Shown here: positions 38,722 to 54,015 of the stretch, piece after piece
How positions within the stretch are numbered: the stretch's first letter is position 1
How the letters are laid out: every line of letters starts with the position of its first letter
Notes under the pieces: generated by a model
What the model saw: only the letters and a program-made list of their open reading frames with translations
What the model was told of the DNA's origin: nothing
The model's database searches: none
Source: Chitinophagaceae bacterium
GTDB taxonomy: Bacteria > Bacteroidota > Bacteroidia > Chitinophagales > Chitinophagaceae
Assembly: GCA_027484165.1 (NCBI GenBank)
Contig: JAIXWH010000014.1
Coordinates: forward strand, 1 to 64,000
Direction: 5' to 3'
DNA: 64,000 nucleotides
Position numbers and translations under genes: made by a program

Positions 38722-38787
38722 TAAAAATATTTTTTTATGATTGGAATTTATATGATCATAAATGGCAGGACAAATGATTTTCCTTAC
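38722..38787 (-). promoter_or_regulatory. Candidate island promoter for the baeRF gene (two boxes plus -7)
   Basis: Read on the minus strand: distal box GTAAGGAAAATCAT (38774-38787), proximal box CCATTTATGATCAT (38752-38765), 22 bp, then TATTTTTA (38722-38729). Spacing equals that of the better sites, and both right half-sites are perfect ATCAT, but both left halves are poor. Listed as a weaker member. Confidence 0.45.
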
Positions 38788-38797
38788 TATCAATTTC

Positions 38798-39100
38798 TCA
38801 ATTCACGTTTTGTGCAATGCAGCGTATGATTTCGGTTTTTGAAACACCCCCACTCTTTCGCAATAAAAGTTTTCCTCTTTTAAAAATGATTATTGTTGGC
38901 ACAGCGTAAACTTTGTATTTATCTCGATAAAACTTATTACTCTCAATATTCATTTTTAATATTGTTGCAGATGCCCCAACAATACTTTTAATATCCTTTA
39001 GGAGAAGATCGACTTTGTCGCAAGAATCAGTAAAATCGTCGAAAAAATCGACAACAACTGGGATGTTACCATGTATATACTCTTCAAATTTTTGGTTCAT
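38798..39100 (-). CDS. Thioredoxin-fold protein with degenerate active site
   Basis: 100 residues with a thioredoxin fold: a strand-loop VVVDFFDDFTDSCDKV where WCGPC normally lies, then LKMNIESN, and the cis-proline motif AVPTIIIFKRGK followed by SGGVSKTE. Only the second active-site cysteine is kept (TDSC instead of CGPC), so ordinary dithiol reduction is unlikely; a monothiol or scaffold role is possible. No signal peptide. It lies 2 bp after the preceding gene in the island operon. Confidence 0.75.
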   Translation of the reverse strand: MNQKFEEYIHGNIPVVVDFFDDFTDSCDKVDLLLKDIKSIVGASATILKMNIESNKFYRDKYKVYAVPTIIIFKRGKLLLRKSGGVSKTEIIRCIAQNVN

Positions 39101-39102
39101 AA

Positions 39103-39516
39103 TTACATGGATTTTTCTTTTTCAAATTGCAGATCATTTCCGTGCATAAAATTGTACGTTGCATTACGACCAATTTCATTCTGTTCTTCCAGCGTCAATT
39201 CATCTGTTCCTACTGTTTGCACCCATTCATCACCATGCAATCTGAATATCTGAGCATTTAAGCCGAATCTGTTTTTTAAATACCTTTCAATAACTCCAGT
39301 TTTTTGCCAAAAATGAATTTCCATATAACCAGTATGATTTTTTTTCTTGCTTATTTCTGAAACAGTCAAATTGAGATCAAGTTGATTTGCAATTGAAGAT
39401 TCCTCCTGCCATAAATGAGGCTTTTTATAAAATTCAATTTTAAGAAACGGATAGATATTGTTAAACAAATTACTGATTTCGTTTAAGGATTGAGAGTCGT
39501 AGATTTCTATAATCAT
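39103..39516 (-). CDS. Hypothetical protein of the stress island
   Basis: 137 residues, not recognised. It begins MIIEIYDSQSLNEIS and has no signal peptide or membrane helix. Aromatic and charged residues alternate (EIHFWQKTGVIERYLKNRFGLNAQIFRLHGDEWVQT), suggesting a compact alpha/beta fold. It may have stress-cluster relatives in other Bacteroidota, which I cannot confirm. It sits directly between a 55-residue ORF and the thioredoxin-like gene. Confidence 0.7.
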   Translation of the reverse strand: MIIEIYDSQSLNEISNLFNNIYPFLKIEFYKKPHLWQEESSIANQLDLNLTVSEISKKKNHTGYMEIHFWQKTGVIERYLKNRFGLNAQIFRLHGDEWVQTVGTDELTLEEQNEIGRNATYNFMHGNDLQFEKEKSM

Positions 39517-39520
39517 TGCT

Positions 39521-39688
39521 TTAAATTTTATTGGTTAATAATAAATCGTAGAGTTCCATTAACAAATTTTGAAACAGATTTTGTAGTTGATGATGAATTG
39601 CAATCAATGTAAAAACAGTAAGCAACCATGAAACATTGGTTAATGATATATTTGGAAATGCATGTCTTGAAAATTCAATTATTTGCAT
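39521..39688 (-). CDS. Possible 55-residue membrane-associated small protein
   Basis: An ATG-started frame of 55 codons with a hydrophobic stretch TNVSWLLTVFTLIAI near its middle and an amphipathic C-terminal half (QLQNLFQNLLMELYDLLL). It fills the 217-bp gap between its neighbours, starts 45 bp after the upstream gene and ends 4 bp before the next start. Both its start and the next one follow an AACCAA(A/T)AAA-like stretch. No family is recognised; conservation would decide whether it is real. Confidence 0.4.
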   Translation of the reverse strand: MQIIEFSRHAFPNISLTNVSWLLTVFTLIAIHHQLQNLFQNLLMELYDLLLTNKI

Positions 39689-39733
39689 TATTTTATTTTT
39701 TGGTTAGTGATAAGCCCCAATATTTTATAGCTG

Positions 39734-40120
39734 CTACATTAAATATTTACCTTTCAATTGTAATGAAATAAAGATTACAGACAATCCAACAAGCACATAT
39801 ACTAAATCCAACCAAAAAGCTTGTTGTATAATTGAGTACTGAATCACCATCCAAACCAAAATCATCGCACCACCAGCAATTGATAAATTATATTTTAGTT
39901 TATGGTTTATTAAATTGTAAAAAAGCGCAAGCAAATTAATTACTCCAACAAAAATCATCAACAATAAACCAGGCAATACAAAATCTTTGAAAACTGAGCC
40001 TTTTAAAATGTCGGTAGTTAAACTTAACAAGCTTCCATCAGGAACACTCATCAAAAGCAATGCAGCAACAACAGTACTAAGTGCTAAAAAAGCTACTAAA
40101 ATGAATAAGATTGTTTTCAT
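39734..40120 (-). CDS. Small integral membrane protein of the stress island
   Basis: 128 residues with four predicted membrane helices (about 3-23, 46-68, 76-96 and 103-121) and very few charges. No catalytic motif and no recognised family. It follows the PEBP gene by 26 bp, so it is probably in the 40893-38798 operon. Confidence 0.7.
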   Translation of the reverse strand: MKTILFILVAFLALSTVVAALLLMSVPDGSLLSLTTDILKGSVFKDFVLPGLLLMIFVGVINLLALFYNLINHKLKYNLSIAGGAMILVWMVIQYSIIQQAFWLDLVYVLVGLSVIFISLQLKGKYLM

Positions 40121-40146
40121 ATCATAAATTATTAAGTGAAAAGAAA

Positions 40147-40674
40147 TTAATGCTCAATTTTAATTTTGGAGGTAAACGCTTTGGATACCTCTTCATTTAG
40201 ATGCTTGATGGGTTTGCCGTAAGTGCAAACAAGCTCTCCATAAGCAAGAACATGGCCAACAATTGCTTTATTCAAATCATCAACTTTATAGGATTCATTT
40301 AAATATAATTTGACATCCAAAGCATACACTTTAAAAATGTAGTGATGAATACCTTTTTGCGGACAAGGGCCACAATAATATTTTGCTTGAAAATCATTTA
40401 ATCCTGATGTCCCCCTTTTAGAATTTTCGGCAATATGATGTGTTGCTGGAATATCCCAGACTAACCAATGAATCCAAGGCTTTATAGGCGCATCAGGATC
40501 TTCCATAACAATAGCCATACTTAAAGTTTCATCTGGCAAATTTTTAATCCACAAATCTGGATTAACATTCTTTCCATCACAAGTATATTTAGAAGGCAAT
40601 GAAGAATTATCAAAGAAGGATTCGCTTTCTATTTTTAATGTTTTAATAGACTTTTCAAAATCAAGATGTATCAT
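40147..40674 (-). CDS. YbhB/YbcL family PEBP-like protein
   Basis: 175 residues of the phosphatidylethanolamine-binding / Raf-kinase-inhibitor-like family. Hallmarks: KYTCDGKNVNPDLWI, AIVMEDPDAPIKPWIHWLVWDIP, and the ligand-pocket segment KYYCGPCPQKGIHHYIFKVYALD. There is no signal peptide, so it is cytoplasmic like YbhB. The ligand is unknown. It lies 24 bp after the small acidic gene in the island operon. Confidence 0.9.
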   Translation of the reverse strand: MIHLDFEKSIKTLKIESESFFDNSSLPSKYTCDGKNVNPDLWIKNLPDETLSMAIVMEDPDAPIKPWIHWLVWDIPATHHIAENSKRGTSGLNDFQAKYYCGPCPQKGIHHYIFKVYALDVKLYLNESYKVDDLNKAIVGHVLAYGELVCTYGKPIKHLNEEVSKAFTSKIKIEH

Positions 40675-40698
40675 AAACTATTAATTTGATTTTAATTA

Positions 40699-40893
40699 TT
40701 ATTGACCTGCAAATTCATCATCCTCATCTGTAGCTTCATTATATTGATCTAGAAAACCTAAATCGTCATACACATCATCCATTTCAGCTTTGGGGTTTAA
40801 AAGCAATTCATCTTCAACTTTATCAGTATTGAATTCCATGTTTGTATCTGAATTACTGTAACTCAAGTCGATATTTATTTTTTTCTTTTTCAT
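40699..40893 (-). CDS. Small acidic hypothetical protein
   Basis: 64 residues from the ATG at 40893. A lysine-rich start (KKKKINIDLSYSN) is followed by a strongly acidic remainder ending in DEDDEFAGQ; no hydrophobic segment. A longer reading from 40917 would cover the proposed -7 element (40906-40913), so the shorter start is preferred. First gene of the minus-strand island operon. Confidence 0.65.
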   Translation of the reverse strand: MKKKKINIDLSYSNSDTNMEFNTDKVEDELLLNPKAEMDDVYDDLGFLDQYNEATDEDDEFAGQ

Positions 40894-40905
40894 AGACGAC
40901 AAATA

Positions 40906-41001
40906 CGAAATAAACAAATGAGAATACTAAATAAAATGAGTGAAATTATTTTTTGGAATGATTTTTATCATTTCAAAGGCATGTCTAAGATTTTACTTTT
41001 G
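40906..41001. promoter_or_regulatory. Divergent island promoter pair (acidic-PEBP operon / DUF892 gene)
   Basis: Two boxes: ATGAGTGAAATTAT (40936-40949) and the perfect palindrome ATGATTTTTATCAT (40958-40971), centres 22 bp apart. Plus strand: 22 bp after the second box lies TACTTTTG (40994-41001) for the DUF892 gene. Minus strand: 22 bp after the first box lies TTATTTCG (40906-40913) for the acidic-protein operon. The plus-strand part is strong; the minus-strand part is weaker. Confidence 0.65.
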
Positions 41002-41016
41002 ATAAAATTTAATTTT

Positions 41017-41547
41017 ATGTCTGAAATACACCCCGTTGAGAATCTTAATCATTTGTTAGATCACGATTCCAGAAAATTTACCATAGCAGAAATTCAATTG
41101 CAAAATGTATTACCCAGCTGGATACAGAAGGCAAATTCATTGAAATTAAAGTCAATATTGCAGAAGTATTTTGAACTGGTAAAAATGCATGTATCCAAAT
41201 TAGAAACCTTTTTCGAGGAGGAAAGCTATAGTTATTTAAACTCTAATAACAGAATTATGCACATACTTATTGAGGAGGCCGAAGAAAAAATAAACAATTG
41301 CACAAATCCATTCCTTAAAGATGCTTGTTTGTTATCAACAATTCAAAACATCAACCATTATAAAATCAGCACTTATGGAACAGCAGCAGCTTTTGCAAAT
41401 ACGTTAGGTAAATCTAAAACTGCAGTATTGTTTCATGAATGCGAGGTTAATGAAAAACAAATAGATGACAGACTGTCTCAATTGGCAGAATTTGAAATCA
41501 ACAAAAAAGCAAGAAATGCAGTTGAAATTCCGAGATACATTAAATAA
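41017..41547 (+). CDS. DUF892 (YciE/YciF-like) ferritin-fold protein
   Basis: 176 residues from the ATG at 41017, which lies 15 bp after the -7 element; the open frame extends to 40918 but that part overlaps the promoter. Predicted four-helix bundle with FTIAEIQLQNVLPSWIQKA, HVSKLETFFEEESY and CEVNEKQIDDRLSQLAE. This matches the DUF892/YciE family, whose members have a ferritin-like fold and occur in stress or biofilm operons. Metal binding is plausible from the Glu residues but not proven. Confidence 0.8.
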   Translation: MSEIHPVENLNHLLDHDSRKFTIAEIQLQNVLPSWIQKANSLKLKSILQKYFELVKMHVSKLETFFEEESYSYLNSNNRIMHILIEEAEEKINNCTNPFLKDACLLSTIQNINHYKISTYGTAAAFANTLGKSKTAVLFHECEVNEKQIDDRLSQLAEFEINKKARNAVEIPRYIK

Positions 41548-41613
41548 TTGATTGGTATCAATAAATGTGTTGACCAAACTCATTTTATATAATTAGATTT
41601 TTTTATTTTTTTG
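41548..41613 (+). promoter_or_regulatory. Island promoter of the BON-domain gene
   Basis: Distal box TTGATTGGTATCAA (41548-41561) equals the E. coli FNR consensus TTGAT-N4-ATCAA. Proximal box TTGACCAAACTCAT (41570-41583) has its centre 22 bp downstream. After a further 22 bp lies TTTTTTTG (41606-41613), a near match to TAnnTTTG. The distal box begins immediately after the DUF892 stop codon. Confidence 0.65.
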
Positions 41614-41655
41614 ATACATACAAAATTCATTTATAACTATTAAAACAAATTAACT

Positions 41656-42330
41656 ATGAAAAGTGACATTGAAATTCAAAAAGACGTAATAGAGCAATTA
41701 AAATGGGAGCCCTTTTTAAATGCTGCTCAAATTGGCGTTTCAGTAAAAAATGCAATAGTTACACTATCCGGCCAGGTAGATACCTATTCTAAAAAAATGC
41801 TTGCAGAAAAAGCTGCTAAAAAAGTTGCAGGAGTAAAAGCTATTGCTGAAGATATTCAGGTTGGCATCTCTCCTTCTTACAAAAGAAGCGATGCAGAAAT
41901 TGCAGAAGCAGTTGTGAATGCTTTAAAATGGCATACTATGATTCCTGAAGATAAAATCAAGGTTAGTGTTGAAGAAGGAAATGTAAAAATGGAAGGTGAT
42001 GTTGAATGGGAATATCAGAGAAGTCAAGCAAAAACTACGGTTGAGAATTTAATGGGAGTAAGATTTGTAACTAATCTTATTGCTGTTAAACCCAAAATTA
42101 CACCCTATGAATTACAACAAAAAATAACAGCAAGTTTTCAACGTAGCGCAAACATTGATGCTGGAAAGGTATCTGTTGATGTTACAGGCTCAAGAGTAAC
42201 TTTAAGAGGCAAGGTTAGATCTTTCGCTGAAAAAGAAGATGCAGAAAATGCAGTTTGGGCTGCTCCCGGAATAGTTTCTGTTGAAAACAAGTTATTAATT
42301 GAAGAGCCAGAATATGCTTTTGAAGACTAA
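41656..42330 (+). CDS. Triple BON-domain protein
   Basis: 224 residues made of three BON domains (about 5-70, 77-145 and 150-217), each with the GV/NVxLxGxV pattern ([40 protein letters not shown]). BON domains bind membranes or envelope components and recur in osmotic and stress proteins such as OsmY. OsmY is periplasmic, but no signal peptide is visible here, so this one may be cytoplasmic. Preceded by one of the best island promoters. Confidence 0.9.
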
Positions 42331-42364
42331 GATTAAAACTGAATTGCTGATTGTTGTTTTTTTG

Positions 42365-42389
42365 TCCCGCTGAAAAGCGGGATTTTTTT
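42365..42389. terminator. Bidirectional intrinsic terminator
   Basis: TCCCGCT and AGCGGGA form a 7-bp stem with a GAAA tetraloop and T/A tracts on both sides. It ends the BON gene and the convergent coiled-coil gene. Confidence 0.9.
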
Positions 42390-42390
42390 A

Positions 42391-42780
42391 TTACTTTTTC
42401 AACATATCAATCAAAAAGGAATTACAGAAATACTTGATGTCAATATATTCTTTTTCTGTTTGGGTATAATTAAGTGAAGCCATCTTCATTTTTAATTCTA
42501 TTTCTTCAGTGATTTTTTCATTAGTTAATGGCTGATCGTTTTCCGTTAACTCGTTTCTTTGTTTGAGTAAATCCTCTTTCAATTTATTGAACTTTCCAGT
42601 CATTTTATCCAACATCAATTGATGTACTTCAACTTTTGCTGCAATATCTACTATCGTATTTCTTTTAACAATGTCTTCAAGTCTTTGCTCAATCACTATT
42701 ATTTCATCAAGATAAGAAGATGCTGATTTTATCCAATCTGATAATTCATTGATGTAATATTCTGCAATTTTCTTTGCCAT
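42391..42780 (-). CDS. Coiled-coil hypothetical protein of the stress island
   Basis: 129 residues, almost entirely helical and charged (EIIVIEQRLEDIVKRN, KLKEDLLKQRNELTEN), with no signal peptide or membrane helix and no recognised family. Divergent from Hsp20 across an intergenic region that has the island box geometry, so probably co-regulated with it. Confidence 0.7.
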   Translation of the reverse strand: MAKKIAEYYINELSDWIKSASSYLDEIIVIEQRLEDIVKRNTIVDIAAKVEVHQLMLDKMTGKFNKLKEDLLKQRNELTENDQPLTNEKITEEIELKMKMASLNYTQTEKEYIDIKYFCNSFLIDMLKK

Positions 42781-42798
42781 GTCTTTTAAATTTAAAAA

Positions 42799-42894
42799 TC
42801 AAGTTATTATCTATTTTAAGGATAAGAGATGAGTTGAATTAGCTTGTGCCCTATTTAAAATCAGTAAAACAAGGAGCTTCAACATGTAATTTGA
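42799..42894. promoter_or_regulatory. Candidate divergent island promoter (coiled-coil gene / Hsp20 operon)
   Basis: Boxes ATGAGTTGAATTAG (42829-42842) and CTATTTAAAATCAG (42851-42864) have centres 22 bp apart. On the minus strand 22 bp leads to TAACTTGA (42799-42806); on the plus strand 22 bp leads to TAATTTGA (42887-42894). Every spacing matches the strong sites, but boxes and -7 elements each carry mismatches. Confidence 0.4.
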
Positions 42895-42915
42895 CAGAGA
42901 TAAAATTTAAAATAA

Positions 42916-43362
42916 ATGAAAAATACAACTCAAAATAAATACGAATGCAAAATTTATCCAGGAGAGTTTATTCCTACTCTTGATTTTAAAAATTTAAAGC
43001 ATCGAATAAAATCTTCAAAATCAATTAGGTTAAAAAGACCTGATGCCAATCTTATTGTAACTGATAACACCATTATTGTAGAAATATCAATACCCGGGGT
43101 TAACAAAGAAGATTTTCATATTGAAGTGAACGAAAATATTTTGTCTGTATTTGTTTTTAAAACCGAGCAAAGAGAGCCAGAGAACAAACAATTCAAATTA
43201 CATGAATTTGAATGTATAAGATATGAAAGGCACTTACCTCTTCCAAAGAACGCAGATCCAAGCTTTGTAAGTGCCAATTATAATCAAGGAATTCTCAAAT
43301 TATTGATTTCAAAATCAAACATAAATTCAAATAATAAATGTAACAAAATAGCTGTTTATTAA
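42916..43362 (+). CDS. Hsp20 family small heat-shock protein
   Basis: 148 residues with an alpha-crystallin domain (about 48-140): IVEISIPGVNKEDFHIEVNENILSVFV, YERHLPLPKNADPSFVSANYNQGILKLLI. ATP-independent holdase that binds unfolding proteins. The usual C-terminal I-x-I motif is not obvious; the protein ends KCNKIAVY. First gene of a three-gene run with the GT35 protein (10 bp gap) and the PLD enzyme. Confidence 0.92.
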   Translation: MKNTTQNKYECKIYPGEFIPTLDFKNLKHRIKSSKSIRLKRPDANLIVTDNTIIVEISIPGVNKEDFHIEVNENILSVFVFKTEQREPENKQFKLHEFECIRYERHLPLPKNADPSFVSANYNQGILKLLISKSNINSNNKCNKIAVY

Positions 43363-43372
43363 ATTAATCAAT

Positions 43373-45034
43373 ATGGGTTTCCAATTTGATCATGGTTATG
43401 AAATAGACAAATCATACAGTAGTCGTGTTGCATATGTTTGTATGGAATTTGGGATTGATCAATCCTTGAAAACATACGCTGGAGGATTAGGTTTTTTAGC
43501 TGGCTCCTTTATGAGAAGTGCATATGAATTAAAACAAAACGTTATTGGCATTGGCATTCTTTGGAAATATGGCTATTACAATCAAGGACGAAAGCAGGAT
43601 TTGACCATGAGTGTGTTATTTGAAGAAAAGAATTATGGATTCTTAATCCCCACTGGAATAAAGTTTTCGTTAAAGATTACAAAGCATGATGTTTGGGTTA
43701 GCGCTTTTTATTTGCCACCGGAAGTTTTTAAAACTGCTCCATTATTTTTATTATCAACGGATTTACCTGAAAATGATTATTTAGCAAAGACAATAACACA
43801 TAAATTATACGATGCAAATCCTGAAACATCAATTGCTGCATCTATCATTTTAGGAGAAGGGAGTGCAAAATTATTGGAAGAATTGAAATGGCAGCCTGAT
43901 TTATTTCATCTCAATGAGTCTCATGCTCTGCCACTTGCCTTTTATTTATATCAGAAATACAAAAATATAAATGAAGTAAAAAGTAAAATAGTTTACACAA
44001 ATCATACACCAGAAGAGGCTGGAAATCTAAAAACAAATATTGCCTTACTCGAAAAAATGAGTTATTTCTGTGATGTTCCCATATCAGAAATCATTGCAAT
44101 TGCAAAAATTGAGCAGGATAAATTAGACCACACAGAAACTTGTTTAAACTTATCAAGAAAATCAAACGCTGTTTCCTTATTGCATAAAAATACACTTATA
44201 AAGAATTGCAAAAACAAGGATAATCTTTGCAATATCATTTCTATAACAAATGCTCAGAATTATAATTATTGGCATGACGAAGAGTTGTTTAAAAATATAA
44301 AAGATAAGCCTATTGAAAATATTTCAATAAGAAAAGAGTCATTAAAAAGTGTACTGTTTGAAATCGTAGCAGATCAATGCGGAGAGATTTATGATCCAAA
44401 AGTTTGTACAATCGTATTTGCAAAAAGATTTGCAGGATACAAAAGAGCCGATATATTTTTTCATAATATGGAGCGATTTGAAAAACTCGTTACAAACAAA
44501 GAAAAGCCAGTACAAATAATTTGGGCTGGGAAACCTTATCCTATGGATTACAATGGAATTGGCGTTTATGATAAAATTGTTGACATCTGTAAAAAGTACG
44601 GCAATTGTTCTATTCTAACAGGATATGAAATGAAATTATCAAAAGTATTGAAAGGTGGTGCAGATGTATGGCTTAATATGCCCAGACTTTTTCATGAAGC
44701 TTCGGGAACAAGCGGCATGGCTGCAGCAATGAACGGGGCTGTAAATGTGGGCATTCCGGATGGATGGTTCCCTGAATTTGCAAAAGACAAAAAAAATGCA
44801 TTTGTAATTCCTTCAAGCGACACTAATCTGCCTGAGCATATTCAGGATGATTTAGATTGCGAATCCTTGTATGACGTAATTGAAAAAGAAATACTGCCTA
44901 TTTATTATGACTATCCTAACAGATGGTTTGAAATTATAAGAAGTGCAGCACTTGATATCATACCCTATTTTGACAGCAACAGAATGAATAAAGAGTATTA
45001 TGACAAACTTTATAATTCTAATTCAAATGAATAA
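43373..45034 (+). CDS. GT35 alpha-glucan phosphorylase-like protein lacking the PLP lysine
   Basis: 553 residues of the short alpha-glucan phosphorylase group: N-terminal AYVCMEFGIDQSLKTYAGGLGFLAGSF, middle HLNESHALPLAFYLY and TNHTPEEAGN, C-terminal FAKRFAGYKRADIFF, IIWAGKPYP and EASGTSGMAAAMNGAVNVG. In active relatives the segment after GTSGM has the lysine that binds pyridoxal phosphate; here that position is Ala (residue 450). Phosphorolysis by the normal mechanism is therefore doubtful, although the rest of the fold looks intact. It may be a divergent glucosyltransferase or a glycogen-binding protein. Its stop overlaps the next start (ATGAATAA). Confidence 0.8.
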   Translation: MGFQFDHGYEIDKSYSSRVAYVCMEFGIDQSLKTYAGGLGFLAGSFMRSAYELKQNVIGIGILWKYGYYNQGRKQDLTMSVLFEEKNYGFLIPTGIKFSLKITKHDVWVSAFYLPPEVFKTAPLFLLSTDLPENDYLAKTITHKLYDANPETSIAASIILGEGSAKLLEELKWQPDLFHLNESHALPLAFYLYQKYKNINEVKSKIVYTNHTPEEAGNLKTNIALLEKMSYFCDVPISEIIAIAKIEQDKLDHTETCLNLSRKSNAVSLLHKNTLIKNCKNKDNLCNIISITNAQNYNYWHDEELFKNIKDKPIENISIRKESLKSVLFEIVADQCGEIYDPKVCTIVFAKRFAGYKRADIFFHNMERFEKLVTNKEKPVQIIWAGKPYPMDYNGIGVYDKIVDICKKYGNCSILTGYEMKLSKVLKGGADVWLNMPRLFHEASGTSGMAAAMNGAVNVGIPDGWFPEFAKDKKNAFVIPSSDTNLPEHIQDDLDCESLYDVIEKEILPIYYDYPNRWFEIIRSAALDIIPYFDSNRMNKEYYDKLYNSNSNE

Positions 45035-46190
45035 TAAAGAATACAGCCATAAAAATAATGTTACTTTAATCAAAGGAGGAAAATCGTATTTTGATTTATT
45101 AACCAATCTCATTGATGAGGCGAAAGAAACGATTTTTATCCAAAGTTATATTTTCAATGAGGATGACACAGGAATACATATTGCTATATCTCTTAGGAAA
45201 GCCGCAAAGCGAAATGTAAAAACATATGTGTTGGTTGACGGGATTGCTTCGCAGTCACTTAGCAAGAACTTTATTCAATCTCTTTTAAATGATGGAATTA
45301 ACTTCAAGCCATTTATGCCCTTATTTCAATGCAATGACTACTATTTTGGAAGAAGAATGCACCAGAAAGTAGTATGTATAGATCAGGTGCACTCTTTAGT
45401 AGGAGGATTAAATATTGCAGACCGATACAATGATTTACCAAACAAAACCGCTTGGCTAGATTTTGCAGTGTATGTTCAGGGAGAAGTGTCTGTTATAGTT
45501 GCAGATTATTGCAGAAGAATTTGGAATGGATATCCTTATGATGACGAAAAATACAACTTTGAGAATCTGACAACTAACATAAATTTAAATAGTGATGAAT
45601 TTTGTGACGTGAGAATGCGAAGAAATGATTGGGTGTGGCATAAAAATGAAATTTCCAATTCCTACATCGAAATGATGCATCATGCGAAAAACAATATTAC
45701 CATTTTATGCAGCTATTTTATTCCGGGAAAAACATTGCGAAGATTAATGGCAAATGCAGTTAAAAGAGGCATTTCAATTAAAGTAATCACCACGAACAAA
45801 TCTGATGTTAAAATTGCAAAATATGCTGAGAGATGGCTTTACGATTGGTTGCTTAGAAATAAAATTGAGCTTTATGAATATAAAACAAGAATCCTTCATG
45901 GCAAACTTGCTATATGTGATGATGATTGGTTCACCATTGGATCATACAATATCAATAATATCAGCACTTATGCCGCACTGGAATTAAATCTAGACATAAA
46001 AAACAAAAACAAAACAATAGAATTACTTCAGTTTGTAAATGAGATTATCAATGTTGATTGTATAAAAATCACAAAAGAGTATCACCGCAATTCAAAAAAT
46101 ATCATTAAACAATTTTCCAGATGGCTATCGTATCAGTTCATCAGGATTGTATTCAAATTATTTACTTTCTATTTTAAAAGAAAAAACTAA
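45027..46190 (+). CDS. Phospholipase D-like / cardiolipin synthase family enzyme
   Basis: 387 residues from the ATG at 45027, which overlaps the upstream stop as ATGAATAA; an earlier in-frame ATG at 45000 is less likely. Two HKD motifs are intact: HQKVVCID near residue 115 and HGKLAICD near 290, each followed by a conserved GG/GS-N turn (GGLNIADRY, GSYNINN). Closest in layout to cardiolipin synthase without the N-terminal membrane helices; a short hydrophobic C-terminus (FIRIVFKLFTFYF) could attach it to the membrane. Likely phospholipid remodelling in the stress island. Confidence 0.85.
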   Translation: MNNKEYSHKNNVTLIKGGKSYFDLLTNLIDEAKETIFIQSYIFNEDDTGIHIAISLRKAAKRNVKTYVLVDGIASQSLSKNFIQSLLNDGINFKPFMPLFQCNDYYFGRRMHQKVVCIDQVHSLVGGLNIADRYNDLPNKTAWLDFAVYVQGEVSVIVADYCRRIWNGYPYDDEKYNFENLTTNINLNSDEFCDVRMRRNDWVWHKNEISNSYIEMMHHAKNNITILCSYFIPGKTLRRLMANAVKRGISIKVITTNKSDVKIAKYAERWLYDWLLRNKIELYEYKTRILHGKLAICDDDWFTIGSYNINNISTYAALELNLDIKNKNKTIELLQFVNEIINVDCIKITKEYHRNSKNIIKQFSRWLSYQFIRIVFKLFTFYFKRKN

Positions 46191-47197: not shown

Positions 47198-47212
47198 GAT
47201 ATTGAAGCGATT

Positions 47213-48052
47213 TTATTTGTTGTGGGAAATAAATAAAGGCGCGTTGAATGATTTTATTATAGCATCTGCCAAACTCGACTTAAACCATCTTGACAACATT
47301 GTTCTTCTGTATGCACCTAAAATAAGCATGAAATTACTTTTGTCCTTATTCAAATGATTGATGATTTCTACCTCAGGTATGCCTTTAAGAATGGTAAACT
47401 CTATATTATTGTAATGTCTTTTTAGAAGCTCCTTAATCAATTTATTATCAGGAAGATGTAAATTATCTTCCAAGGGTTTTACACAAATCAATTCTAGTGG
47501 CAGCGACTTAAAATTCGGCATTAATAAATTTGCCATTTTCAACGTATAAATAGAGGCGGGCTTGCCATCATAAAGAAACACAATCTTATTAATTTCGCTA
47601 TATATCTCAGGTGTCAATAAAACAGAACACTGGGTATTACTCAAAACATCTCTTATAAATCTTGTAGGAAATTGCTCCACATGATGTGTAAATGATTCGC
47701 CACTATTGATAACCAATAAATCCGAAAACAGAGTTTCATGTAAAAGTTCAGGAAGAGCAACATCTCTGTCGTGATGTATATTATATTCAATTTTATGGCT
47801 GATACAATCAGACTCAAATTCAATTGATGCATTCCGTCTTCTTTCGTTGTCTTGCTCCTTAAATTTTCTTAACCTGTGTTCTGATACACCATCTTCAATT
47901 ACCATATCATAAATCTTGTAACTGGTATAGGTTTGATCATCTAAAAATACACCAGTCAAGTGCGATTGGGTTGTTGAAGCAATTGCCATTGCATATTGTT
48001 TTGTAGATGTTGCAAATTTCAAACCATCAAATGCTGCAATTATTTTATTCAT
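47213..48052 (-). CDS. Universal stress protein, two-domain
   Basis: 279 residues comprising two UspA-like halves (about 1-150 and 160-279), beginning MNKIIAAFDGLKFATSTKQYA and ending in MLILGAYRRTMLSRWFKSSLAD. The second half keeps a G-x-x-R-R motif resembling the ATP-binding G-2x-G-9x-G(S/T) loop, but it is degenerate. Such proteins accumulate in growth arrest and low oxygen or energy. Second gene of the usp-usp-DUF457 operon (22 bp after the first). Confidence 0.88.
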   Translation of the reverse strand: MNKIIAAFDGLKFATSTKQYAMAIASTTQSHLTGVFLDDQTYTSYKIYDMVIEDGVSEHRLRKFKEQDNERRRNASIEFESDCISHKIEYNIHHDRDVALPELLHETLFSDLLVINSGESFTHHVEQFPTRFIRDVLSNTQCSVLLTPEIYSEINKIVFLYDGKPASIYTLKMANLLMPNFKSLPLELICVKPLEDNLHLPDNKLIKELLKRHYNNIEFTILKGIPEVEIINHLNKDKSNFMLILGAYRRTMLSRWFKSSLADAIIKSFNAPLFISHNK

Positions 48053-48074
48053 GGTTATTAATTTTAAATGAACA

Positions 48075-48899
48075 CTATTTATGACAAATGAAAATGGGAA
48101 TTTTATGATCTTTTATGACGTCTAAAACAAAACTTCTGCTGAACAGTTGTGATACTGCAGTTCTGCCAAACGAACCGGCTACTATGATAGATGCCTTCTT
48201 ATCAGCAACCCAGGTAGCAAATTGACTTTTAGATTCTATATTGACTTTTGAAATGGTCAAATCAGGAAAATGTCTCGCAGCTAACTCCTCTATGTATGCC
48301 TCATTAGGAATACGTCCTGCACCATCAATATTCGCATAAGTCAAAAATGTGGGATTAGTACAAAATTCCGGCAACAAGTAGATAAATTGCTTAATTGCAA
48401 AAACAGAAGACTCGCTTCCATCATAGGTAAGTACATTTAATGTTGGGAATGTGTATTTTTCAGGAACAAGAATTACCGAACATTCAATACTGTGGAGCGT
48501 TTCTCTCAAATAATTATTAGGATTTCCTGATCCCATGTTCTCATAAAACTTCTCTTCACCGATGATCATTAAATCAGCAAAACGGGATTCTTTCTTTAAT
48601 TCAGGAAGTGCTAAATCACTGAAATCTTTACGAACCCTGAATTCGATATCATTTCTCATACATAAGTCTTCAAACTTTTTGATATTCTCTTCAATAAGCT
48701 GGGTTTCGTTATCATCTATCGCAGGAACAAACATGGGGGTACCTACACCATCTGCGTAAGTCCACAAATTGGCATAACTCACTTGTGGCAAAAACACTCC
48801 AGTAAGTAAGATCTTATTTTTTTCATTCAATTGCTTTGCAAAATTGAATGAACCTTCTGAAAAATGTACTCCATCGAATGCCAATAATATTGTTCTCAT
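48075..48899 (-). CDS. Universal stress protein, two-domain
   Basis: 274 residues with two UspA-like halves, beginning MRTILLAFDGVHFSEGS. The second half ends SIIVAGSFGRTAVSQLFSRSFVLDVIK, close to the canonical nucleotide-binding loop GxxGRxxxxxxxxGS, suggesting possible ATP binding. It is the first gene of a three-gene operon and has one of the clearest island promoters, 17 bp before its ATG. Confidence 0.88.
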   Translation of the reverse strand: MRTILLAFDGVHFSEGSFNFAKQLNEKNKILLTGVFLPQVSYANLWTYADGVGTPMFVPAIDDNETQLIEENIKKFEDLCMRNDIEFRVRKDFSDLALPELKKESRFADLMIIGEEKFYENMGSGNPNNYLRETLHSIECSVILVPEKYTFPTLNVLTYDGSESSVFAIKQFIYLLPEFCTNPTFLTYANIDGAGRIPNEAYIEELAARHFPDLTISKVNIESKSQFATWVADKKASIIVAGSFGRTAVSQLFSRSFVLDVIKDHKIPIFICHK

Positions 48900-48915
48900 A
48901 ATTTTTAAATTTCAA

Positions 48916-49011
48916 CAAACCTATTAACTGAAGCTATTAATTAGTATGACACTAATCAATATAACAAATGAAAATAGTCATGATCATTTTTAAAGAAGAA
49001 ACCAACTTTTG
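48916..49011. promoter_or_regulatory. Divergent island promoter pair (usp operon / ldhA-mla operon)
   Basis: Boxes ATGACACTAATCAA (48946-48959) and ATGAAAATAGTCAT (48968-48981), centres 22 bp apart. On the minus strand 22 bp leads from the first box to TAGGTTTG (48916-48923), a perfect TAnnTTTG, for the usp operon. On the plus strand 22 bp leads from the second box to AACTTTTG (49004-49011), one mismatch, for the dehydrogenase operon. This is the clearest symmetric example in the window. Confidence 0.75.
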
Positions 49012-49050
49012 AACATTAAAGAAATCGATTATCTAAATAAATTAACTGTT

Positions 49051-50067
49051 ATGAAAGTTTTATTCTATAGTATAAAAAACTACGAAAGAAAAATACTGCA
49101 GGAGGCAAACAAAAACAGATTTCATTTAACCTTTAAAGAAGAGGTGCTAAACTTAGAAACGGCCTTTTTAGCAAGGGGATTCGAAGCCATTTCTATATTT
49201 ACGAATGACAATGCGAGTGAAGACATTTTGAGAATACTACATTCCGTTGGTATAAAATACATAACAATAAGATCAACCGGATATGACAATATAGATTTGA
49301 TTATGGCAAAAGAACTGGGCATTACAGTATCTAACGTTCCTGATTATTCGCCAGAATCAATAGCAGAACACACAGTTATGCTATTACTTAATCTTTTGAA
49401 AAAAAATAAAATGGTACAAAACCAATTAGCACATCAAAACTTTTCTTTGGACAATATCATCGGCGAAACTATTCATAATAAAACTATTGGAATTATTGGA
49501 ACAGGTAAAATTGGCTCTATAGTTGCAAAAATACTTTCAGCATTTGGCGCAAATATTATAGCATGTGATACTGTTATGAATAAAACCCTCGAAAAAAATT
49601 ATAATGTCAAATATGTAAGCTTGATTAATATGGCTTACAATTCCGATATCATCAGCATCCACACGCCCTTAAATGAGTATACCCATTACATGATAAATCA
49701 CGACCTGATGAGCAGAATGAAAAATAATGTTCTTATAATTAATACAGCAAGGGGTAGTATCGTAAACACAAAAGAAATCATTGAAAATCTTAATAAAAAA
49801 AACATTGGTGGTTATGCAACTGATGTATATGAATTTGAAAAAGGAATATTCTTTTATAATCATTCACAATCAAGAATAAAAGATAAAATGCTGACTGAGT
49901 TAATGAATATGGATAACGTAATAATAACTCCTCATCAGGCATTCGCAACAAAAGAGGCACTCTCAAGAATTACAGAAATAACTTTTGAAAATTTAACCTC
50001 ATGGTATCTCAGAAAAGAAATAAAAAATAAAATAAGTGATGTTGAATACAAATTGATGACTATTTAA
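49051..50067 (+). CDS. ldhA: D-lactate dehydrogenase (2-hydroxyacid dehydrogenase family)
   Basis: 338 residues from the ATG at 49051; an earlier TTG (49009) would overlap the -7 element. NAD-binding GTGKIGSIVAKILSAFGA, the catalytic arginine in NTARGSIVNT, and the catalytic histidine in ITPHQAFATKEAL are present; VSNVPDYSPESIAEHTV matches the D-LDH branch. It would reduce pyruvate to D-lactate and reoxidise NADH in fermentation. The mlaE gene begins 12 bp after its stop, so lactate fermentation and lipid transport appear to share one transcript. Confidence 0.88.
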   Translation: MKVLFYSIKNYERKILQEANKNRFHLTFKEEVLNLETAFLARGFEAISIFTNDNASEDILRILHSVGIKYITIRSTGYDNIDLIMAKELGITVSNVPDYSPESIAEHTVMLLLNLLKKNKMVQNQLAHQNFSLDNIIGETIHNKTIGIIGTGKIGSIVAKILSAFGANIIACDTVMNKTLEKNYNVKYVSLINMAYNSDIISIHTPLNEYTHYMINHDLMSRMKNNVLIINTARGSIVNTKEIIENLNKKNIGGYATDVYEFEKGIFFYNHSQSRIKDKMLTELMNMDNVIITPHQAFATKEALSRITEITFENLTSWYLRKEIKNKISDVEYKLMTI

Positions 50068-50079
50068 AAATCCAACTAT

Positions 50080-50850: not shown

Positions 50851-50857
50851 TCTAACA

Positions 50858-51607
50858 ATGAAATTAGAAGAAAACATAACCCTTCCCGTTATAGCAATCA
50901 ACAATCTGAGTAAATCGTTTGGAAGCAATATTGTATTAAAAGATTTCAATCTGAATTTATACAAAAAACAAAATCTTGTTGTGCTAGGCAAATCAGGATC
51001 AGGAAAATCAGTGTTGATAAAATGCATAATCGGATTATTAAAACCTGATAAAGGAAGCATCGAAGTATTTGATAAAAACCTACCGGATTTAAACGATTTG
51101 GAATTGGATAAGATTAGAGCAAAAGTTGGATTTCTGTTTCAAAGTAATGCGCTGTATGACTCAATGACCGTAAGAGAAAATCTGGAATTCCCATTAAGAA
51201 GACATTGGATAAAACACAATCAAGGAGAAGTAGAACAATTGGTTACTGAAGCATTAAATGATGTAGGATTATTACACACAATAGAAATGATGCCTTCTGA
51301 ACTTTCCGGAGGAATGAGAAAAAGAATAGCATTAGCAAGGACTTTGATTCTAAAACCCGATATTATTCTTTATGACGAACCTACAACAGGCTTAGACCCT
51401 ATCACCGGAAAAGAAATTATTAAACTTATGATTGATATCAAAAAGAAATACGGAACTGCTGCATTGATTATTTCGCATGATATGAATTGTGTAAAAATGG
51501 CTGCCGATAAGATCGTGATCTTATACGAAGGCAAATGCTATGCAGAAGGAACATACAATGAACTTACAGAAAACAATGACCCAAATGTGAAGCAGTTTTT
51601 TGAATAA
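50858..51607 (+). CDS. mlaF: MlaF-type ABC transporter ATP-binding protein
   Basis: 249 residues. Walker A GKSGSGKS near 47, Q-loop region FLFQSNALYDSMTV, signature LSGGMRKRIALART and Walker B LYDEPTTGLDP. The LSGGMRKR form and the downstream MCE gene mark it as the Mla-type ATPase. It energises lipid movement through MlaE. Confidence 0.93.
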   Translation: MKLEENITLPVIAINNLSKSFGSNIVLKDFNLNLYKKQNLVVLGKSGSGKSVLIKCIIGLLKPDKGSIEVFDKNLPDLNDLELDKIRAKVGFLFQSNALYDSMTVRENLEFPLRRHWIKHNQGEVEQLVTEALNDVGLLHTIEMMPSELSGGMRKRIALARTLILKPDIILYDEPTTGLDPITGKEIIKLMIDIKKKYGTAALIISHDMNCVKMAADKIVILYEGKCYAEGTYNELTENNDPNVKQFFE

Positions 51608-51621
51608 TAAATTCAGATATT

Positions 51622-52605
51622 ATGAAAGATAAAACACTAAATAATTTCAAACTAGGAATATTTGTTTTAGCAGGACTTTTATTCTTAATCGTACTGTTAT
51701 ACATGATTGGCAAAAACAGAAACATGTTTGGCTTTAATTATGTAATCAAAGCCAGATTTGAAAATGTACAGGGCTTAAAAACAGGCAACAACGTAAGATT
51801 TGCCGGAATAGACATTGGAACTGTTTCAAATATTTCAATGATAAATGACACGATTATGGAAGTTGAAATGTCTATAGACCATAAAGTAAAAAACATCATA
51901 AGAACAAATGCCATCGCATCTATTGGAACAGATGGTTTAGTAGGCAACAAAGTAGTCAATATCATATCATTAAAAAAGTCTGCTCCTCTTGCTAAAAATA
52001 ATGACATTTTAAATACTAAAAAGCCTATTGATACAGATGAAATGTTGAGGACGTTCTACAAAACAAACAACGATATCAGTATTATCGCTCAACAACTTAA
52101 GATTACAATGGCAAAAATAAACGACAGTAATAAATTATGGGAAGTGATTAATAATAAAGACTTTGCAAACAATTTAAAGTCTTCTGCAAATCAAATCAAA
52201 AACGCATCATCACATCTCAATGAATTAACAACTCAAGCAAATAATATAGTCAAGGAGGTAAACGAAGGAAAAGGCACTTTAGGATTAATTTTAAAAGACA
52301 CTGCTTTTTCAAAATCAATTTCGAATAGCATGAAAAGTATAAATAACATAGCAATAAAAGCAAATGAGCTATCTGTTCAATTAAAAGAAATCATGGAAGA
52401 AATTAATCATGACATCAAAAATGGAGATGGTATAGCCAATAAAATATTAAAAGATAGTCAAATTGTAAATAAAATAAATAACGCTCTAACAAACATAGAA
52501 AATGGCACGAATGGCTTTAATCAAAATATGGAAGCTTTAAAACATAATTTCTTATTCAGAGGATATTTCAAAAAGCTGGAAAAACAAAATGCAAAAAAAC
52601 AATAA
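51622..52605 (+). CDS. mlaD: MlaD-like MCE-domain substrate-binding protein
   Basis: 327 residues. One N-terminal membrane helix (about 9-27) anchors an MCE domain (about 35-115) with ENVQGLKTGNNVRFAGIDIGTVSNI. A long C-terminal helical tail (about 135-327) is rich in Asn/Lys, consistent with a shaft or hexameric channel extension. Binds phospholipids in the periplasm. MlaA, MlaB and MlaC are not present nearby, so the system is minimal. Last gene before the triplicated repeat. Confidence 0.9.
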   Translation: MKDKTLNNFKLGIFVLAGLLFLIVLLYMIGKNRNMFGFNYVIKARFENVQGLKTGNNVRFAGIDIGTVSNISMINDTIMEVEMSIDHKVKNIIRTNAIASIGTDGLVGNKVVNIISLKKSAPLAKNNDILNTKKPIDTDEMLRTFYKTNNDISIIAQQLKITMAKINDSNKLWEVINNKDFANNLKSSANQIKNASSHLNELTTQANNIVKEVNEGKGTLGLILKDTAFSKSISNSMKSINNIAIKANELSVQLKEIMEEINHDIKNGDGIANKILKDSQIVNKINNALTNIENGTNGFNQNMEALKHNFLFRGYFKKLEKQNAKKQ

Positions 52606-52624
52606 ACATCAATCAGTATAATTT

Positions 52625-52668
52625 ATGCCTACCGTCATTTTTTAGTACTAATAAACACTCTACTTTCG
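52625..52668 (+). promoter_or_regulatory. Island promoter of repeat copy 1
   Basis: Proximal box ATGCCTACCGTCAT (52625-52638; a diverged left half), 22 bp, then TACTTTCG (52661-52668). A distal half-site ATCAG lies at 52612-52616, at the expected 22-bp offset. Weaker than copies 2 and 3. Confidence 0.55.
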
Positions 52669-52731
52669 ATTCAGGTTTTTCATATAGGATATTGGATAAA
52701 GAACGAGCCGGATTTCTATCCGGCTTTTTTT
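52668..52731 (+). ncRNA. Putative small RNA, copy 1
   Basis: A non-coding core with no ATG, identical in all three copies (transcript probably from about 52674). It ends in a perfect terminator: AGCCGGAT (52706-52713), UUCU loop, AUCCGGCU (52718-52725) and a T run. Alternative pairing of GGAUAAAGA (52694-52702) with UUUCUAUCC (52713-52721) would disrupt the terminator. Predicted length about 55-60 nt. Not matched to a known family by me. Confidence 0.5.
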
Positions 52732-52736
52732 ATTGA

Positions 52737-52802
52737 TTTAAAACAATCATAAGTTAAGATGACTGTCATCATATTTTAAAGACTATTACAGCCCTACTTT
52801 TG
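52737..52802 (+). promoter_or_regulatory. Island promoter of repeat copy 2
   Basis: Distal box TTTAAAACAATCAT (52737-52750), proximal box ATGACTGTCATCAT (52759-52772), 22 bp, then TACTTTTG (52795-52802), an exact TAnnTTTG. The proximal box overlaps the inverted repeat GATGAC-T-GTCATC. Confidence 0.65.
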
Positions 52803-52865
52803 ATTCAGGTTTTTCATATAGGATATTGGATAAAGAACGAGCCGGATTTCTATCCGGCTTTTTTT
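52802..52865 (+). ncRNA. Putative small RNA, copy 2
   Basis: Same core as copy 1 without a single change. Terminator stem AGCCGGAT/ATCCGGCT at 52840-52859 followed by six T residues. Preceded by the complete two-box promoter. Confidence 0.55.
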
Positions 52866-52870
52866 ATTGA

Positions 52871-52936
52871 TTTAAAACAATCATAAGTTAAGATGACTGC
52901 CATCATATTATATAGACCATTACCACCCTACTTTTG
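52871..52936 (+). promoter_or_regulatory. Island promoter of repeat copy 3 (pfkB leader)
   Basis: Distal box TTTAAAACAATCAT (52871-52884), proximal box ATGACTGCCATCAT (52893-52906), 22 bp, then TACTTTTG (52929-52936). It is the closest promoter to pfkB, whose ATG is at 53015. Confidence 0.65.
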
Positions 52937-52999
52937 ATTCAGGTTTTTCATATAGGATATTGGATAAAGAACGAGCCGGATTTCTATCCGGCTTTTTTT
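52936..52999 (+). ncRNA. Putative small RNA copy 3 or pfkB attenuator leader
   Basis: Same core as the other copies; terminator stem 52974-52993 with T run to 52999, only 15 nt before the pfkB start. Transcripts from this promoter must read through the terminator to express pfkB, unless pfkB has another promoter that I cannot see. The alternative pair 52962-52970 with 52981-52989 could act as antiterminator. Confidence 0.5.
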
Positions 53000-53014
53000 A
53001 ATTAACTTAACAAA

Positions 53015-53953
53015 ATGACTAACATAATAACCATCACCTTTAATCCAGCTATTGACAAAAGTGTTTCAATCGACGCTTTAGTACCTGAAAAAAAATTAAA
53101 ATGCTCTAAAGCAAAATATGAGCCAGGTGGCGGTGGCATTAATGTTTCTAGGGTTATTAAACGATTGGGCGGTAATACCAATGCACTTTATTTGGGTGGA
53201 GGATTTAATGGACATCTATTACAAGAGCTCTTGAATAAAGAAAACGTAAGCTCTCATTTGATTCAATGTAAAAACAATACCAGAGAGAATTTAATTGTTT
53301 TCGAAAATAAATCCAAGCAGCAATACAGATTTGGTATGACCTCAGAAGATTTTTATGAAAATGAATGCTTGATGCTTCTTGATTTTTTGGAAAAAGAAAA
53401 TGATAATCAATACTGGGTTATCAGTGGTAGTATTCCCAACTCAATCCCTCTAAGTGTCATTGAATCTGTTATTAAAATTGGCAAAAAGAAAAAAATAAAA
53501 ATCATTGCCGACACTTCAGGCGATGCGCTTAAATCGATAATAAACGAAGGTATGTTTTTGATCAAACCAAACATCAATGAACTTAGTAACATTGCAGGTA
53601 TTGAATTAATGAATCAAAATGATATCATTCAATTTGCTCAAAATAAAATCTCAAATAAACACCTTCAACATTTAGTAGTTTCATTAGGTCCTGAAGGCGC
53701 GTTATTGATTACAGATGAAATTGTTTACAAAATCACTCCACCCTCTGTAAAAAAAATAAGCACTGTTGGTGCTGGTGATAGTATGGTTGGTGCAATTGCA
53801 TACTCATTAGCCAATGGAAAAAATATACTGGAAGCCGTACAATACGGTGTTGCTTCAGGAACTGCTGCAACCATGAATCCAGGAACTGAGTTGTGTCACC
53901 TATCTGATGTAGAAATCCTACTTAAGCAAATAATTACCACAAAACTGAATTGA
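53015..53953 (+). CDS. pfkB: 6-phosphofructokinase, PfkB (ribokinase) family
   Basis: 312 residues. Phosphorylates fructose 6-phosphate in glycolysis (or a related phosphosugar). The N-terminus TFNPAIDKSVSIDALVPEKKLKCSKAKYEPGGGGINVSR-type region resembles E. coli Pfk-2, and the C-terminal anion-hole/catalytic motif STVGAGDSMVGA with its Asp base is intact; VASGTAATMNPGTELC follows. 1-Phosphofructokinase activity cannot be excluded. Expression would pass through the leader terminator just upstream. PfkB fits the low-oxygen, fermentative theme of the island. Confidence 0.88.
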   Translation: MTNIITITFNPAIDKSVSIDALVPEKKLKCSKAKYEPGGGGINVSRVIKRLGGNTNALYLGGGFNGHLLQELLNKENVSSHLIQCKNNTRENLIVFENKSKQQYRFGMTSEDFYENECLMLLDFLEKENDNQYWVISGSIPNSIPLSVIESVIKIGKKKKIKIIADTSGDALKSIINEGMFLIKPNINELSNIAGIELMNQNDIIQFAQNKISNKHLQHLVVSLGPEGALLITDEIVYKITPPSVKKISTVGAGDSMVGAIAYSLANGKNILEAVQYGVASGTAATMNPGTELCHLSDVEILLKQIITTKLN

Positions 53954-54015
53954 TCATCATCAGTAATTGAATTGAGCATTGTCATTTTGTATTGATAGCA
54001 TTGAACTTATTTTTG
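53950..54015 (+). promoter_or_regulatory. Island promoter of the YtxH operon
   Basis: Distal box TTGATCATCATCAG (53950-53963, overlapping the pfkB stop), proximal box TTGAGCATTGTCAT (53972-53985), centres 22 bp apart, then 22 bp and TATTTTTG (54008-54015), an exact TAnnTTTG. One of the best sites. Confidence 0.72.

Follow-up and report, generated by a model that had tools for sequence, protein, structure and literature searches.

The two-box promoters and their genes

The window analysed here is a stretch of 64,000 nucleotides from a Chitinophagaceae genome, and it contains a stress island in which predicted promoters share one layout. In full, this layout consists of two TGA-N6-TCA boxes 22 bp apart, followed by 23 nt and then by TAnnTTTG. 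The promoters were scored with a PWM that was trained on other genomes only and then run on the window; they are listed below with the genes that they would regulate.

38722–38786, minus strand: two-box promoter upstream of the baeRF family 3 gene (37598–38701); PWM 14.0, probable, not firm
40906–40970, minus strand: two-box promoter of the acidic protein-PEBP operon; PWM 27.2, 3 mismatches, both boxes common with the DUF892 promoter
40937–41001, plus strand: two-box promoter of the DUF892 gene; PWM 26.4, 1 mismatch
41549–41613, plus strand: two-box promoter of the BON-domain gene (41656–42330); PWM 26.9, 1 mismatch
42799–42863, minus strand: weak two-box promoter candidate of the coiled-coil gene (42391–42780); PWM 11.9, marginal
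42830–42894, plus strand: weak two-box promoter candidate of the Hsp20 operon (42916–46190); PWM 9.2, marginal
47213–48899, minus strand: two universal stress protein genes (usp operon), regulated; Pfam Usp, weak
48916–48980, minus strand: two-box promoter of the usp operon; PWM 24.5, 0 mismatches
48947–49011, plus strand: two-box promoter of the ldhA-mla operon; PWM 21.4, 1 mismatch, both boxes common with usp
49052–50067, plus strand: ldhA, D-2-hydroxyacid/lactate dehydrogenase, regulated; Pfam 2-Hacid_dh
52604–52668, plus strand: two-box promoter of small RNA copy 1; PWM 18.1
52738–52802, plus strand: two-box promoter of small RNA copy 2; PWM 28.1, 1 mismatch
52872–52936, plus strand: two-box promoter of small RNA copy 3; PWM 28.8, 1 mismatch
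53015–53953, plus strand: pfkB-family kinase behind the three small RNAs; Pfam PfkB
53951–54015, plus strand: two-box promoter of the YtxH operon; PWM 35.1, the best in the window, 0 mismatches

Random 64-kb windows from a Markov model contain about 0.4 sites with a PWM score of at least 10 and about 0.1 with at least 14, and the top score among 20 such windows was 17.7. Against this background nine promoters are firm and that of baeRF is probable, whereas these scores do not separate the coiled-coil and Hsp20 promoters from chance. The shared layout of the original prediction is therefore borne out, and its list of downstream genes stands for the nine and probably for baeRF, with the coiled-coil and Hsp20 entries left marginal. 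It had also proposed three divergent regions in which the same boxes serve both directions: two are firm (40906–41001 and 48916–49011) and one is marginal (42799–42894). The acidic protein-PEBP direction, which had been called weak, is in fact strong. The ORF starts of three genes are to be moved downstream of their promoters, to the ATGs at 41017 (DUF892), 49052 (ldhA) and 54052 (YtxH).

The spacing itself stands out within the window. Seven core pairs with at most 1 total mismatch are spaced at 22 bp, whereas no other spacing between 14 and 59 has more than 4 such pairs; 3 of the pairs at 22 bp match TGA-N6-TCA exactly. In six of these seven, the 14-bp box is followed after exactly 22 bp by TAnnTTTG or a sequence close to it. 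The seventh, at 55847, has a PWM score of 7.2, which is chance level, and was set aside.

Enrichment and geometry of the layout

The host genome has 19 layout matches at up to 3 mismatches, compared with 2 when the pattern is reversed, and every match with no more than 1 mismatch is located in the stress island. An order-wide scan of 199 genomes gave 1190 matches, against 42 for the reversed control. Among 80 named Bacteroidota loci, spanning 1.44 Mb, there were 137 matches at a spacing of 22/23 and 0 in the reversed control; neighbouring spacings gave 29 matches at most, so that the peak is at exactly 22/23. The condition set beforehand for rejecting the prediction, no enrichment over shuffled DNA, did not apply: the enrichment is large in the host genome, in the order and in the named genomes. 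Within the flanks covered, 25 of the 80 loci had no match at up to 2 mismatches, and of the 71 loci that exceed 12 kb, 21 had none; Winogradskyella and Salinimicrobium are among those without a match. The scans confirm that the predicted two-box promoter pattern is real and common to hundreds of genes in aerobic Bacteroidia.

A layout of this kind could also reflect duplicated intergenic DNA or chance in AT-rich sequence. The three RNA repeats are genuine copies of one another, and their promoters are consequently not independent. However, all other promoters differ in sequence outside the fixed positions, the matrix came from other genomes, and the reversed controls of 42 and 0 stand against 1190 and 137. 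Such an origin was already refuted by the order-wide and named-loci scans, and we give it practically no weight.

TAnnTTTG is enriched at one fixed spacing, and its position relative to the transcription start is taken from PMC9723704, which places the Bacteroidota −7 box at −12 to −5. With the −7 box in this position, the box centres would fall at −41.5 (proximal) and −63.5 (distal), in agreement with the class II proximal site of a CRP/FNR-type regulon that had been predicted. The layout would be a fixed-geometry, activator-dependent promoter, in which TGAY-N4-RTCA dimer sites at −63.5 and −41.5 are followed by the −7 box TAnnTTTG; this is one component of the explanation given below, which as a whole we regard as likely.

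A small RNA family under predicted two-box promoters

Three of the predicted promoters precede short repeats, each ending in an intrinsic terminator.

52672–52731, plus strand: small RNA copy 1 and intrinsic terminator; fold z −3.5, family homologues
52806–52865, plus strand: small RNA copy 2 and intrinsic terminator; fold, family homologues
52940–52999, plus strand: small RNA copy 3 and intrinsic terminator, just before pfkB; fold, family homologues

Of the 197 genomes in the host's family, 116 carry homologues. A search of Rfam gave 15 matches at E ≤ 1, none of which came near the gathering score, and by sequence and predicted fold the repeats are a small-RNA family absent from Rfam. Several roles were considered and rejected. 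A CsrA sponge, suggested by GGA motifs, fails as none of the 197 family genomes has CsrA. Pairing in antisense to ATGAAAAA start regions gave 143 matches in the host genome and 130 with the reversed pattern; three exact ATGAAAAA-antisense matches are probably further RNA copies on the opposite strand. A leader or attenuator was dismissed because, in relatives, no gene is consistently downstream on the same strand.

A REC-CRP fusion as the candidate regulator

TGA-N6-TCA is the core that is read by CRP/FNR proteins. As had been noted, no regulator gene lies within the window; the candidate is encoded on another contig (G000:C21:73305-74360). It is the sole protein with a cNMP-binding domain, and hence of the CRP/FNR family, in a host genome called 100% complete, and HTH_Crp_2 likewise has one match over the cut-off there. 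A receiver domain (REC) stands in front of an FNR-like (CRP) DNA-binding module, in which the cNMP-binding fold (PF00027, 83 bits) is followed in one reading frame by HTH_Crp_2 (PF13545, 51.8 bits); these two domains place the protein in the CRP/FNR family. The output domain is CRP-type and not LuxR/GerE, the type that defines FixJ. In the recognition helix, GTATESLIR, E317 and R321 are invariant in 21 sequences, and this E-x3-R pair presumably comprises the residues that read TGA in the CRP/FNR family.

The receiver residues D52, the expected phospho-acceptor Asp, and K104 are invariant and a kinase gene adjoins, which mark the protein as a two-component response regulator; the neighbour encodes a PAS histidine kinase and overlaps the regulator gene by 23 bp. 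The cysteine cluster that holds the FNR-type [4Fe-4S] centre is absent. As the host regulator has cysteines only at 51 and 229 and no cluster motif, it should hold no cluster of this kind. Judged from the sequence, the stretch that seems to correspond to the cAMP phosphate-binding cassette, which contains Arg-Ser in the cAMP receptor protein, is YKETAEA and lacks an arginine. The predicted structure comprises receiver, linker, beta-rich domain, long helix and winged helix, with a mean pLDDT of 78 and a pTM of 0.40. In the tree, the fusion forms one clade (98/86) that groups with FNR and three long-branch proteins (90/88); a strict sister relation of fusion and stand-alone FNR is not favoured, though that tree is not rejected (p-AU 0.165).

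Genomes with the regulator are also rich in the motif. Mean counts per genome, which ignore phylogeny and rest on a fusion search that scored ten candidates per genome, are 7.8 with the fusion only (n = 106), 9.7 with fusion and FNR (n = 21), 3.5 with FNR only (n = 34) and 1.1 with neither (n = 38). Motif-bearing genomes that lack the fusion mostly have an FNR with a CxxC-x8-10-C cluster. In the named loci the motif is densest less than 2 kb from the regulator gene; 21 of the 137 matches lie directly behind it. In the host genome two promoters (PWM 22.8 and 23.1) lie within 1.1 kb behind the regulator gene, one of them before a second Hsp20 gene, and in two genomes (G068 and G169) the motif is 18–27 bp behind the FNR gene. 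By these sequence matches, the putative regulator/motif system is spread across the class Bacteroidia.

The only protein in the host genome that could plausibly read the layout appears to be a two-component version of FNR, and the layout there is most likely read by this REC-CRP regulator. Phylogeny could inflate the co-occurrence, and as binding by the regulator is deduced from sequence, a transcription factor of another family might read the boxes, with the REC-CRP gene a mere neighbour that co-occurs through the aerobic Bacteroidia. This is highly improbable given one CRP/FNR protein in the genome, the motif directly behind its gene in 21 loci, and a box core of CRP/FNR type that resembles the rhizobial FixK/FnrN box TTGAT-N4-ATCAA (PMC7888657).

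A probable low-oxygen survival programme

Since the only plausible reader is a two-component version of FNR, the stress island is most likely a survival programme that is switched on at low oxygen. The PAS domain of the kinase matches structures of FixL (E 9e-11 to 8e-10) and DosP (E 3e-11), and the presumed haem histidine, as aligned with FixL, is kept in 65 of 67 kinases. The host kinase has Met at the position of FixL Arg220, which we take to be the oxygen-binding residue; the Pedobacter and Mucilaginibacter kinases have a fuller FixL signature. In other genomes the first genes downstream of the layout are usp (16), ldhA-like genes (16), cbb3 oxidase (9), the PAS kinase itself (9), copper-type P-ATPase (5) and radical SAM (3), and ScdA/hemerythrin and YceI proteins are also among the targets. 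The cbb3 oxidase subunit II was not found in the host genome, which rules this oxidase out as a target there and removes the clearest oxygen-linked one.

When oxygen falls, the PAS kinase, with its FixL/DosP-like PAS and putative haem, would phosphorylate the REC-CRP regulator, two dimers of which would then occupy the boxes. Contact with RNA polymerase would be made by the proximal dimer in the class II CRP/FNR manner, and activation would switch on the genes for stress proteins and lactate dehydrogenase, together with a sugar kinase gene and the three small RNAs. The motif, its spacing and span, the single cNMP-binding-domain protein of the genome, the co-occurrence and linkage of motif and regulator, and the gene content are read from the DNA, and from these we infer binding, phosphotransfer, haem, the oxygen signal and activation. 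This explanation as a whole, a REC-CRP read-out of low oxygen through two-box promoters, is in our judgement probably correct.

The same regulator and promoters could instead serve a general stress regulon, in which the PAS kinase responds to some other cue, for instance nitric oxide, the redox state or a metabolite of the cell. The window genes are stress genes, the host lacks cbb3 subunit II and the FixL arginine, and the ScdA/hemerythrin and YceI targets may reflect nitrosative or redox stress. However, genomes that have only the FNR carry these operators too, and elsewhere the operators precede cbb3 oxidase and ldhA; the conserved histidine and the fuller signature in Pedobacter and Mucilaginibacter also point to oxygen, making a different signal unlikely.

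With low oxygen as the favoured signal, a broader proposal has slightly better than even chances: across Bacteroidia, one low-oxygen regulon would have kept its geometry unchanged under two interchangeable sensors, either an iron-sulphur FNR or a clusterless receiver-FNR under a haem kinase, and would also drive multi-copy, non-Rfam small RNAs, sibling copies of which would be under other promoters. If true, this would be a clear case in which the sensing part of a transcription factor was exchanged and the operators were kept. Low-oxygen sensing is little described in aerobic Bacteroidia such as Chitinophaga, Pedobacter, Mucilaginibacter, Spirosoma and Flavobacterium. In Flavobacterium, a transcriptome study found strong induction of cbb3 oxidase at oxygen limitation, and the part of its text available does not name the regulator (PMC9723704). 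The present analysis names a candidate regulator and an operator, together with the promoter geometry and a list of genes, and adds a small-RNA family to a phylum with few known; searches of the open-access literature found neither the regulator nor the layout described.

Comparison with known systems

The rhizobial FixL-FixJ-FixK and hFixL-FxkR-FixK systems likewise combine a FixL-kind PAS kinase with an FNR-like activator and a box of the TTGAT-N4-ATCAA type, which is found before cbb3 oxidase genes (PMC7888657). Here, in contrast, the receiver and the FNR-like activator are fused, with no separate FixJ (LuxR-type) and no fixK transcription step, and two boxes at a fixed spacing of 22 bp belong to a Bacteroidota promoter. 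Enterobacterial FNR and FnrN share the box core, the predicted class II position and a related DNA-binding module. Some of the host's relatives combine this promoter layout with a stand-alone FNR whose N-terminus contains a cysteine cluster; the clusterless host regulator differs from enterobacterial FNR in its cysteines.

Class II/class III CRP-dependent promoters resemble the layout in the predicted proximal activator dimer at −41.5 and a second dimer upstream. They differ in that the distal dimer here would be at −63.5, two helical turns off, with a spacing fixed across Bacteroidia, and in that the sequence logo has no −33 or −35 element. In Mycobacterium, haem-containing sensor kinases control the DosR dormancy regulon, which includes universal stress proteins, Hsp20 and a pfkB-type kinase. 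With the same kinds of stress genes it would be a functional analogue, although DosR is a LuxR-type protein that reads a different box and its output domain is not homologous.

Geometry and enrichment of the motif

The layout consists of two TGA-N6-TCA boxes at 22 bp spacing, a gap of 23 nt and a TAnnTTTG element, the -7 box. Allowing a pair of TGA-N6-TCA cores up to one mismatch overall, a direct scan of the window found seven pairs at 22 bp spacing and at most four at each of the other spacings from 14 to 59 bp. The layout is enriched in the host genome and in its relatives. When up to three mismatches are allowed, the full layout has 19 matches in the host genome (2.5 Mb in 158 contigs, of which C98 is the window) vs two for the reversed pattern, and at up to two mismatches the counts in 199 genomes of the order are 1190 vs 42. 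Seven host-genome matches have at most one mismatch, and all seven lie inside the stress-gene island, 38722-54015.

In 1.44 Mb surrounding 80 regulator loci of named genomes, a box spacing of 22 combined with a gap of 23 forms a peak of 137 matches, with 0 for the reversed pattern and at most 29 for each neighbouring spacing. The boxes are mutually dependent, because 134 exact double boxes were observed and approximately one is expected. On the scanned side, 57 of these 134 have a -7 box within one mismatch, for which the background rate is below 1%. Each box has the logo TGAY-N4-RTCA. The TAnnTTTG box of Flavobacterium psychrophilum is positioned at -12 to -5 (PMC9723704). Applied to the layout, this position would place the box centres at -41.5 and -63.5, in agreement with the predicted proximal centre near -41.

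Promoters in the window

The window was scored with a position weight matrix (PWM) built from other genomes only. Ranks 1-9 are occupied by nine of the promoters in the original prediction (scores 18.1-35.1), followed by baeRF at 14.0 and the coiled-coil gene at 11.9; the Hsp20 promoter is fourteenth at 9.2. Random windows matched in dinucleotide composition contain approximately 0.4 sites scoring at least 10 and 0.1 scoring at least 14, and the highest random score, 17.7, occurred in one of 20 windows. Consequently, of the seven intergenic regions thought to share one layout, six hold, with baeRF less certain, while coiled-coil/Hsp20 is marginal. Both promoters are weak in that stretch, 42391-42894; a strong one precedes a second Hsp20 gene, which adjoins the regulator gene.

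Candidate regulator

The conserved CRP/FNR-family gene that was sought exists once in the host genome. The only cNMP-binding-domain protein and the only HTH_Crp_2 match over the cut-off are the same 352-residue protein (contig C21, 73305-74360), in which a receiver domain is followed by a CRP/FNR module (REC-CRP). Its gene overlaps by 23 bp with that of a 552-residue PAS histidine kinase. Host-genome sites outside the window are as follows, the last three scoring 18 to 21 and named by sequence inspection:

Behind the REC-CRP gene, opposite strand: small gene, two-box promoter, PWM 22.8
Behind the REC-CRP gene, opposite strand: second Hsp20 gene, two-box promoter, PWM 23.1
C3:1430 (L054 1430-1597): large repeat-containing protein
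C107:40349 (L055 5553-6350): beta-barrel-like protein
C92:26012 (L016 1397-1565): OmpR-type regulator

The last three genes are probable extra members of the regulon.

Motif number follows regulator content in the same 199 genomes, as raw counts uncorrected for phylogeny: the mean is 9.7 with fusion and FNR (21 genomes) and 7.8 with the fusion alone (106), against 3.5 in the 34 genomes that have only FNR and 1.1 in the 38 that have neither. Four genomes have at least three matches despite having neither regulator; the completeness of three of these is 72-83%. Where the motif is present and the fusion is absent, most genomes have a stand-alone FNR of approximately 235 residues. This FNR carries a CxxC-x8-10-C cluster at its N-terminus and in most cases another cysteine near 112, the pattern that would be expected of an iron-sulphur FNR. 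Its recognition helix is nearly identical to that of the fusion. Two genomes, G068 and G169, encode both proteins, and in these the motif lies 27 and 18 bp behind the FNR gene and 16 and 5 bp behind the fusion gene, respectively. In the tree, the fusions form one clade (support 98/86), and fusions, FNRs and three long-branch proteins group together (90/88); strict fusion-FNR pairing is neither rejected nor shown (p-AU 0.165).

The sequences establish a unique candidate regulator, its linkage to the motif and the target content. We infer that REC-CRP binds the boxes and activates through the proximal dimer, with phosphotransfer, haem and oxygen as the probable input.

Sensor kinase

A kinase gene lies directly upstream of the regulator at 70 of 80 loci. 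The first PAS domain of the kinase resembles structures of DosP and FixL, with E-values between 3e-11 and 8e-10. Among 67 alignable kinases, 65 have histidine at the FixL haem-ligand position and 46 have arginine at the Arg220 position, where the host kinase has Met. This makes haem binding likely in the group as a whole and less certain in the host kinase.

Small RNAs

52672-52999: three repeats of the same sequence in units of ~60 nt, every unit having a two-box promoter of its own and an intrinsic terminator
C92:21088-21103: probable further copy, host genome
C92:27238-27253: probable further copy, host genome
C156:19977-19992: probable further copy, host genome

Of the family's 197 genomes, 116 have homologues, and multiple copies per genome are common; a search of Rfam found no family. 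The small RNAs stand alone between genes. Conservation is almost complete in the 5' part, GGTTTTTCATAGGATATTGGATT, to which the window copies add two bases, and four pairs of the terminator stem keep pairing through changes on both sides. Of 53 matches checked for promoters, some from loci fetched twice, five (L209, L210, L220, L221, L229) have a two-box score of at least 18 and the rest are below. By eye, ATGCAGCGTTTT...TGCATCTTTG lies upstream of several other sibling small RNAs (L207, L208, L212, L213, L219), and is possibly another promoter class of the ECF-sigma type. Sibling copies within a genome are under different promoters. CsrA sequestration is excluded in the host's family, as its 197 genomes have no CsrA. 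Separately, a divergent copy (L232, on G136:C30) is ~30 bp behind a REC-CRP gene, on the opposite strand.

Reach and content of the regulon

In the phylum sample, 54 of 395 genomes match within one mismatch, nearly all within the same class. Two genomes from one family of another class (G620 and G653) have 10 and 11 such matches and 0 for the control. Layout, spacing and spread are established at the sequence level.

Target content was read from 132 proteins in other genomes whose genes come first after the motif. Among these, Usp and D-lactate dehydrogenase-like proteins account for 16 each, the cbb3 oxidase CcoNO and PAS kinases (own operon) for nine each, YceI for six, copper-kind P-type ATPases and pyridoxamine-oxidase-like proteins for five each, and BON, Hsp20, radical SAM and ScdA/hemerythrin for three each. 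In the host genome, where CcoO was looked for and not found, the stress set is kept. Overall, the targets look like an FNR/FixK oxygen regulon together with a dormancy-type stress set.
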